The notes under the pieces are model-generated. The model did no database searches. It had not been told where the DNA came from and was given only the letters and a program-made list of their open reading frames with translations. A DNA stretch of 64,000 bases from Entomomonas sp. E2T0 (lineage in GTDB: Bacteria; Pseudomonadota; Gammaproteobacteria; Pseudomonadales; Pseudomonadaceae). Where the stretch lies: the NCBI RefSeq assembly GCF_025985425.1, contig NZ_CP094972.1:496001-560000 (forward strand), in the 5' to 3' direction. Positions within the stretch are counted from its first letter, which is position 1; each line of letters starts with the position of its first letter. Position numbers and translations under genes: made by a program. Below are positions 52,039 to 54,466 of the stretch, piece by piece.

Positions 52039-52080
52039 TTGACTTGTGTCATAACCTCTACTCGAGTAAATGATTAAATA
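52039..52080 (+). promoter_or_regulatory. FNR/ANR-like class II promoter of the diiron protein gene
   Basis: TTGACTTGTGTCAT (52039-52052) matches the FNR/ANR dyad TTGAC-N4-GTCAA at 9 of 10 informative positions. A -10-like TAAATA lies at 52075-52080. A start near 52087 would place the centre of the dyad at about -41.5, the position used for activation by FNR-type regulators. A 10-bp palindrome TACTCGAGTA (52059-52068) lies between. No good sigma-70 -10 sits 16-18 bp after TTGACT, arguing that this hexamer is not a simple -35. Confidence 0.55.
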
Positions 52081-52105
52081 ATGAGACATTTTTAGAGGGT
52101 ATCTC

Positions 52106-52894
52106 ATGCGACGCGATCCGATTACTTTATTTGATAATGGCACCCATAAGTGTGTCTGTTTTGATAACCTTGTTACAGGTGGTGGTGTACAGTCTAATCA
52201 GTTTGTGATTTTAGACGGTGACCAAGCTATCCTTCTTGATCCAGGTGGAGATTTAACATATACCACTTTAACATTAGAGATTGCTAAGCATTTAGCCCTT
52301 AAAGATTTGACTTATATCTTTGCATCTCACCAAGACCCCGATATTGTGGCATCTTTAGATAAATGGTTATTACATACCAATGCTCGGGTTATCTGCTCTA
52401 AATTATGGGCTCGTTTCTTACCTCACTTAGTGGCCAACTATCTTTCAAATAGCCATGGCATTAATACTTATGAGCGTATTATCCAATTACCTGATGCTGG
52501 CGGTGCCATTCCTTTAGGCGATAGTAAGTTAATGGCTGTTCCTGCGCATTTCTTACACTCTGAAGGTAATTTCCAAATCTATGATCCTGTGAGTAAAATT
52601 TTATTCTCTGGTGACCTAGGCGCATCTATTGTAGATGATGCAGAGCCTATTACAAACTTTGAAGAACATTTACCAAACATGCTTGGCTTCCACCAACGTT
52701 ATATGATTAGTAACAAAATTGGTCGCTATTGGGCAAACATGGTTCGTGGTTTAGATATTGAAATGATGGTTCCACAACATGGCCGTCCATTTAAAGGCAA
52801 AGAAATGGTTAATAAGTTTATCAATTGGTTTGAAAACTTAGAGTGTGGTGTGGACTTAATCACTCAACAAAACTATGTTCTACCAAAAATATAG
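52106..52894 (+). CDS. ODP-like diiron metallo-beta-lactamase-fold protein
   Basis: The 262-residue protein has the metallo-beta-lactamase fold. Its metal motif is SHQDPDIVASL, in the style of flavodiiron and oxygen-binding diiron proteins (ODP), not the hydrolase HxHxDH. Further likely ligands are in PAHFLHSEGNF, FSGDLGA and a C-terminal VPQHGRPF. Such domains bind O2 or NO, or reduce them with a redox partner; no flavodoxin domain is fused here. An AGAGGG site precedes the ATG. An FNR-like site upstream fits a role under low oxygen or nitric oxide (inference). Confidence 0.75.
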   Translation: MRRDPITLFDNGTHKCVCFDNLVTGGGVQSNQFVILDGDQAILLDPGGDLTYTTLTLEIAKHLALKDLTYIFASHQDPDIVASLDKWLLHTNARVICSKLWARFLPHLVANYLSNSHGINTYERIIQLPDAGGAIPLGDSKLMAVPAHFLHSEGNFQIYDPVSKILFSGDLGASIVDDAEPITNFEEHLPNMLGFHQRYMISNKIGRYWANMVRGLDIEMMVPQHGRPFKGKEMVNKFINWFENLECGVDLITQQNYVLPKI

Positions 52895-52910
52895 TTAAAC
52901 CCAATATAAA

Positions 52911-52938
52911 AAAGCTGCTTAAATAAGCAGCTTTTTTA
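52911..52938. terminator. Bidirectional terminator after the diiron protein gene
   Basis: The stem AAAGCTGCTT / AAGCAGCTTT has a 4-nt loop, flanked by A and T runs, between convergent genes. Confidence 0.88.
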
Positions 52939-52942
52939 TTAC

Positions 52943-54466
52943 CTATAATTTATTATTGCGCATATTTCTTAGTTGTTTTTCAAGTACTTCTGCATAAGGC
53001 TCTAACACTCGCTCAATACAGAATGTATCTGCTGGATTAGCTAATCCTCTAATCTTAGCTAAAATCTCTACCCTCTCATCACCTGCCACAGACTGATCCA
53101 TTAATAATAGATTACGACTATGGTCAACAAGCGACCGAGCTAATTTTACAGTCGTATTATCTAATAACTCTTGGGGTGTTAAACCTAATAAATCAGTTCC
53201 CTGTGCCAGAGCTATTTGTAGCAATAACGTGATATTTGTATCCGCCAATTCAACTTGTAACTCATGGCTTAAACCACGCATTAATTCACCACAACATATC
53301 GCATGTGTTAAATAAGTATCTGTATCATTACCACGCCCATGAAACAATACTAAACTACTACCATCATTTAATGTATGTATTTCACCCTTATAGATACGTA
53401 CGGTTTGATCTAAACAATCACGATAACGTTGTAATAAATTAATTAATCGCTCTTTAGATAATAATTTTAACTTATCCTGTCCACCTAACCGTATATACAA
53501 TACTGCAGTTTGTGTAGGTTGTTGCATAGTCACACCACTTTCTAATTCTTCTTTATCTGCTGGCACTGAATCACTAATAATAGGTATATCTGCCTCAGCA
53601 ATGACTGAGCGATCAAAACTGGCAATCTCATCAAGAAAAGCCCGATCAAAATTACTATCTGTTAATTCATCTTCAGTTTGTCTAATATTAATCAGATCAT
53701 GTTCAACCACCTCAATAGGTTCAGGCTCTAACTCTGGTTCAATAAATTGCGCATAATATGCTTCAATATCTTCAACAGCAATTAATTTAGCTTGTAACTC
53801 TCTAGCTAAATCACCTATTTCATCTTGTCGATCGCTGGCAGGTACAGGCATAACAGGATCTCTTACCCATTCTCGTAATTGAGTAACCGGTGTAGTAATT
53901 TTACGACCTAATCTAAATATAAAAATTAATACAATAACCAGTAAAATACCTGCAATAATAATGGCACGCTCAACACTCACCACCCAAGGCAATTGAAATT
54001 GCTGATGATTTAATCTTAAACGTAATTCAACATCTGGCTGCTTTTGGATAGCTAACCTTTCTTTATACAAATCTGTTTTATTGGTGTGAGAAAATTGTTT
54101 TAGACCAGCCCGAAACAATTCATTACCTTCACCATCATAAATCCCCACATCGGCAACCAATGGATTTTTAGCTAGTGATCCTAACAAAATATTCAGCCCC
54201 AACTTATCATCAATGGCTAATAACTCTGCTGCCCTTTCTGCAGTCTGAGTTAATAAACTTTGTCCCACTGCATCCGCTTGTTGACGCATAGAAAGCTTAA
54301 ATTGATCATTAACTAGCCAAGCATAAACACCAAAGGCAATAGCTAACACTAGCAAGCATTGAATAATCAAACTAGCAACAAGAGAAACTCGTTTTTGTCG
54401 TATTGTTTGGTTGGAATATAAAAAAAGATTGTCTTTTTTAGCATGTTGTTGCTGTTTCACAAGCAA
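52943..54466 (-). CDS. Smp-like membrane protein with HAMP and degenerate cyclase-like domain
   Basis: The 507-residue protein has helix 1 at about 28-50, a periplasmic region of about 110 residues (VGIYDGEGNELFRAG, sensor-like), helix 2 at about 166-186 and a HAMP-like segment (RKITTPVTQLREWV to DEIGDLARELQ). An acidic linker (about 240-310) follows. The C-terminal region (about 319-480) resembles a class III nucleotide cyclase fold. There the first metal Asp is replaced by Arg326 (AVLYIRLGG) while Asp368 (LNDGSSLVLF) remains, so catalysis is unlikely. It is divergent from serB, the position of smp/ytjB in other gammaproteobacteria. Function unknown. Confidence 0.7.
   Translation of the reverse strand: MLVKQQQHAKKDNLFLYSNQTIRQKRVSLVASLIIQCLLVLAIAFGVYAWLVNDQFKLSMRQQADAVGQSLLTQTAERAAELLAIDDKLGLNILLGSLAKNPLVADVGIYDGEGNELFRAGLKQFSHTNKTDLYKERLAIQKQPDVELRLRLNHQQFQLPWVVSVERAIIIAGILLVIVLIFIFRLGRKITTPVTQLREWVRDPVMPVPASDRQDEIGDLARELQAKLIAVEDIEAYYAQFIEPELEPEPIEVVEHDLINIRQTEDELTDSNFDRAFLDEIASFDRSVIAEADIPIISDSVPADKEELESGVTMQQPTQTAVLYIRLGGQDKLKLLSKERLINLLQRYRDCLDQTVRIYKGEIHTLNDGSSLVLFHGRGNDTDTYLTHAICCGELMRGLSHELQVELADTNITLLLQIALAQGTDLLGLTPQELLDNTTVKLARSLVDHSRNLLLMDQSVAGDERVEILAKIRGLANPADTFCIERVLEPYAEVLEKQLRNMRNNKL

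Follow-up and report, generated by a model that had tools for sequence, protein, structure and literature searches.

The stretch of DNA analysed here (64,000 nucleotides, hereafter the window) carries a gene of the ODP family, whose product is of the metallo-beta-lactamase (MBL) fold, preceded by an Anr/FNR-type box, a spacer, a -10 element and a Shine-Dalgarno-like sequence, and followed by a terminator-like hairpin (Table 1). The box, TTGACTTGTGTCAT, departs from TTGAYnnnnRTCAA by one mismatch. If TAAATA is taken as the -10 element, transcription would start at 52087 and the centre of the box (52045.5) would fall at -41.5, the class II position, a placement that derives from the position of the -10 only. 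Given the hairpin 3' of the coding sequence, the gene is probably monocistronic and forms a predicted single-gene transcription unit. Convergent with it, on the reverse strand, positions 52943-54466 encode a 507-residue membrane protein whose match to PF10144 (SMP_2/YtjB-like N-terminus) stays below threshold.

Table 1. Features of the ODP locus, in positions of the window
Feature	Position	Strand	Basis or remark
Anr/FNR-type box TTGACTTGTGTCAT	52039..52052	+	read from sequence; kept upstream of orthologues
Spacer, 22 nt, box to -10	52053..52074	+	length conserved, sequence not
Palindrome TACTCGAGTA, within spacer	52059-52068	+	read from sequence; not conserved
-10 element TAAATA	52075..52080	+	family consensus TAAGnT, same spacing
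AGAGGG, Shine-Dalgarno-like, ahead of ATG 52106	52093..52098	+	read from sequence
ODP-family MBL-fold gene, 262 aa, ATG at 52106	52106..52894	+	ORF, profile match
Terminator-like hairpin AAAAGCTGCTTA-AA-TAAGCAGCTTTT with T run	52910..52940	+	read directly from sequence

Conservation of the box and its spacing

Taken as a single match, the box barely rises above chance: if one mismatch is allowed, 19 matches occur in the window and 11.4 +/- 2.9 in shuffled sequence, and perfect boxes number 25 per strand genome-wide, against 28 for a reversed control pattern. A regulon prediction from the genome-wide perfect boxes was dropped, since they show no excess over the control. What argues for a genuine Anr box is that the box, its spacing and the -10 are conserved together upstream of orthologues. 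The family sample comprised 198 genomes, 113 of them with an ODP gene; named genomes, in part the same ones, supplied 80 loci. Among 90 distinct orthologue upstream regions, 87 contain the box with at most one mismatch, against 0.63 expected from shuffles that keep base composition and not dinucleotides, and in most cases 22 nt separate the box from a TAAGnT -10 that is likewise conserved. Where a box with two or fewer mismatches is present (89 regions), TTGA and TCA vary in two cases only, the spacer columns are near random, and positions 23-28 counted from the box read TAAGnT (of 89, T 80, A 77, A 63, G 56, T 64). Thinning to less than 60% identity leaves the box in 39 of 42 regions.

The pattern extends to further genera of the family (18 of 19 upstream regions, 0.2 expected) and to other families, where the box is present in 11 of 29 ODP upstream regions (0.4 expected) and is combined with TAnnnT at 21-23 nt in 10 of the 29 (0.02 expected); about two thirds of the other-family regions are without it, which counts against the proposed Anr activation. 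Within the window's genus, three of the four genomes read have the box, the gene lying beside pcnB-folK. In the fourth, a Ventosimonas MAG (L031/L003) whose protein is 88% identical, no box stands in class II position, and the best site within 500 nt of that ODP gene lies ~253 nt upstream, which also counts against the proposal.

The preliminary description had read an FNR/ANR site with one mismatch at class II distance from TAAATA, and both the site and the 22-nt distance hold up, the dyad being kept upstream of orthologues. Its suggestion that the intervening palindrome TACTCGAGTA may serve a second regulator does not: the palindrome is broken even in sister species, reading TACTCAAGTA in one that is 98% identical and TATTCTGATA in one that is 90% identical, and was rejected as such a site. 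A perfect 10-nt palindrome of any kind occurs in 4 of 104 spacers; two of the four match each other, and none resembles TACTCGAGTA.

Anr and the relation to PA4348

A Pfam profile search of the genome reports two CRP/FNR-type proteins over the cut-offs, one Anr and one CRP/Vfr-like protein, with no other protein of FNR type passing the family cut-offs; two weaker HTH matches fall below cut-off. The presence of an fnr/anr gene, which the preliminary description had proposed to check, is thereby settled. Anr (L136 5541-6296) contains a C-x2-C-x5-C motif plus one further Cys, and its recognition helix reads VETVSR. Its gene adjoins hemN, a classic Anr target, with a perfect box ~72 nt before the hemN start. 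With one Anr, no second FNR-type protein over cut-off and hemN adjacent to anr behind a perfect box, Anr is the likely reader of TTGACTTGTGTCAT.

In P. aeruginosa PA7, the corresponding gene (L089) encodes a 70% identical protein and closes the order olsA - olsB - acyl-CoA dehydrogenase-like - ODP. In PAO1 numbering, olsA is PA4351 and olsB is PA4350 (PMC11631085; PMC11279095), and PA4348 appears in the literature as a metallo-beta-lactamase-domain protein of unknown function (PMC7035377). As the PA7 order matches PA4351 to PA4348, we take PA4348 to be the P. aeruginosa ODP orthologue, on the basis of gene order and this published description. PA4348 is listed in the Anr regulon in PMC8087004, which cites Trunk et al. 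2010, and again in the Anr-regulon table of PMC13086522. Its mRNA was unchanged under peptide 1018 and so does not follow other Anr targets in every condition (PMC8087004), a point against the proposed Anr activation. Its array signal was 47.7-fold lower in a rubredoxin reductase mutant of P. aeruginosa (PMC12431658). The regulation is thus already known in a relative, and the window gene is a well-supported new instance of a known pairing of Anr with an ODP gene. Among open-licence papers, we found none that joins the Anr regulation of PA4348 to the ODP family, a link that gives PA4348-type Anr targets a testable activity. Elsewhere, in Denitrificimonas and three MAGs (L034, L061, L062, L095), a gene resembling bacteriohemerythrin, another type of O2-binding protein, lies near the ODP gene, up to ~2.3 kb upstream.

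The ODP-family product

Pfam analysis assigns the product to PF19583 (ODP; E 3e-72, 243 bits vs a cut-off of 27.2, profile positions 1-194 of 194). Full-length matches are also returned with the solved oxygen-binding diiron proteins 6qrq and 6qnm (E 4e-62 and 1.5e-56), which share with the window protein the motifs HQDPD, AHFxHS, FSGDxGA and PQHG, in agreement with the earlier proposal of an oxygen-binding-type diiron protein of MBL fold. All 138 sequences compared have H75, D77, D79, H148, H151, D170 and H225; the HxDxD metal motif noted beforehand corresponds to H75, D77 and D79, and alignment leaves none of the ligands missing. The probable metal positions are H75, D77, D79, H151, D170 and H225. 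Apart from the palindrome, the earlier reading of site and product was largely right.

No flavodoxin domain is present in the 262-residue ORF, which stops after the MBL domain and is followed by the terminator-like hairpin, so that the product appears to be a stand-alone ODP. In the genome, no rubredoxin match was obtained, the sole chemoreceptor (MCP) is PilJ-like and clusters with PilG-, PilH- and PilI-like proteins, and the search reports one haem-copper oxidase, of quinol-oxidase size. The lack of a rubredoxin match and the presence of only a PilJ-like receptor speak against a reductase of flavodiiron type or a part in flagellar oxygen taxis and make a free-standing binder of O2 or NO seem the likelier role. 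Two long open frames (L137, L139) considered as ODP fusions were rejected because the ODP has an ATG start of its own and the N-terminal extension runs antisense to the genes next to it. In several gammaproteobacterial genomes, G026:C39, G514 and G298 among them, ODP is present in two to four paralogous copies, and for some of these the identity to the window protein is as low as 36-46%.

Proposed function and comparison with known systems

Starting from the site, its spacing and conservation, the protein family, the conserved metal positions and the presence of Anr, all established here, we consider it likely that the gene is an Anr-activated, low-oxygen single-gene unit whose stand-alone ODP most probably binds residual O2, perhaps NO. 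When oxygen falls, Anr would regain its [4Fe-4S] cluster, dimerise and bind TTGACTTGTGTCAT; from -41.5 it would touch RNA polymerase as a class II activator, compensating for the missing -35. Anr binding and activation at this promoter are what we infer from the sequence. In the product, an MBL fold with no flavodoxin or rubredoxin part would house a two-iron site of flavodiiron type. As a working hypothesis for what it does with O2 or NO, the protein might serve microoxic cells as a soluble sensor, a scavenger or a small store of oxygen by binding residual O2, perhaps NO. That relatives across the family keep this promoter suggests a protein whose function is tied to expression at low oxygen.

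A different reading, which we regard as unlikely yet deserving some weight, makes the ODP a flavodiiron-type O2 or NO reductase supplied with electrons by separate redox proteins. Flavodiiron proteins have an HxExD motif followed by His, and an H-x18-D spacing; the latter is reproduced by H151-x18-D170, so that the metal positions are of flavodiiron type, and a weak flavorubredoxin match in NCBIfam (E 8e-5) points the same way, as does the lower PA4348 signal in the rubredoxin reductase mutant. However, the 262-residue protein is without a flavodoxin domain, the genome is without a rubredoxin match, D79 is followed by Ile, Val or in one case Cys, not by His, among the sequences listed, and the solved relatives carry the name of oxygen-binding proteins.

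Less probable still is that the ODP might be a sensor signalling to the pil-chp twitching-motility receptor, by analogy with Treponema denticola, where ODP is a chemotaxis oxygen sensor genetically coupled to its receptor (PMC7666581). The one receptor kept in this genome is indeed PilJ-like, but the ODP gene lies ~170 kb from pil-chp, and its neighbours are not chemosensory across the family. That the box is a chance match, conserved through the coding constraint of the upstream gene, is very improbable. Single matches are near chance, and many Pseudomonas have a box that runs into the last codons of the upstream ORF (PA7: ...LGLDPGQ*). Yet its reading frame differs between loci, and it lies across the stop codon in some and beyond it or in intergenic DNA in others, at a fixed distance from a -10, for which reason coding constraint was rejected as the source of conservation; it is also kept in the window's genus despite a different neighbour, and PA4348 is a published Anr-regulon gene.

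The low-oxygen, Anr-activated O2 binder that we favour has counterparts among known systems. The promoter resembles class II FNR/Anr promoters in its centre at -41.5, its -10 and the lack of any required -35 match, the single mismatch in the box being the only difference seen. The PA4348/PA7 copy has the same Anr box, whereas the window gene differs in its pcnB-folK neighbours, in a box ending in T and not G, and in an A+T-rich promoter. With flavodiiron proteins the window protein shares the di-iron site in an MBL fold (H-x-D-x-D ... H-x18-D ... H), and it differs from them in that it lacks a flavodoxin domain, has HxDxD where they have HxExD, and carries Ile/Val at the position of the next His; unlike in the flavodiiron setting, its genome gives no rubredoxin match. 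The T. denticola ODP, a member of the 6qrq/6qnm family, is receptor-coupled, while the window gene has no linked chemoreceptor. As a model for the proposed role of ODP as an O2 binder we take Mhr, the Anr-regulated hemerythrin of P. aeruginosa. We tentatively extend the comparison to an old Anr/FNR-ODP pairing across gammaproteobacterial families, in which ODP, where flagellar chemotaxis or rubredoxin is absent, might act like Mhr as a free-standing microoxic binder of O2 (or NO).
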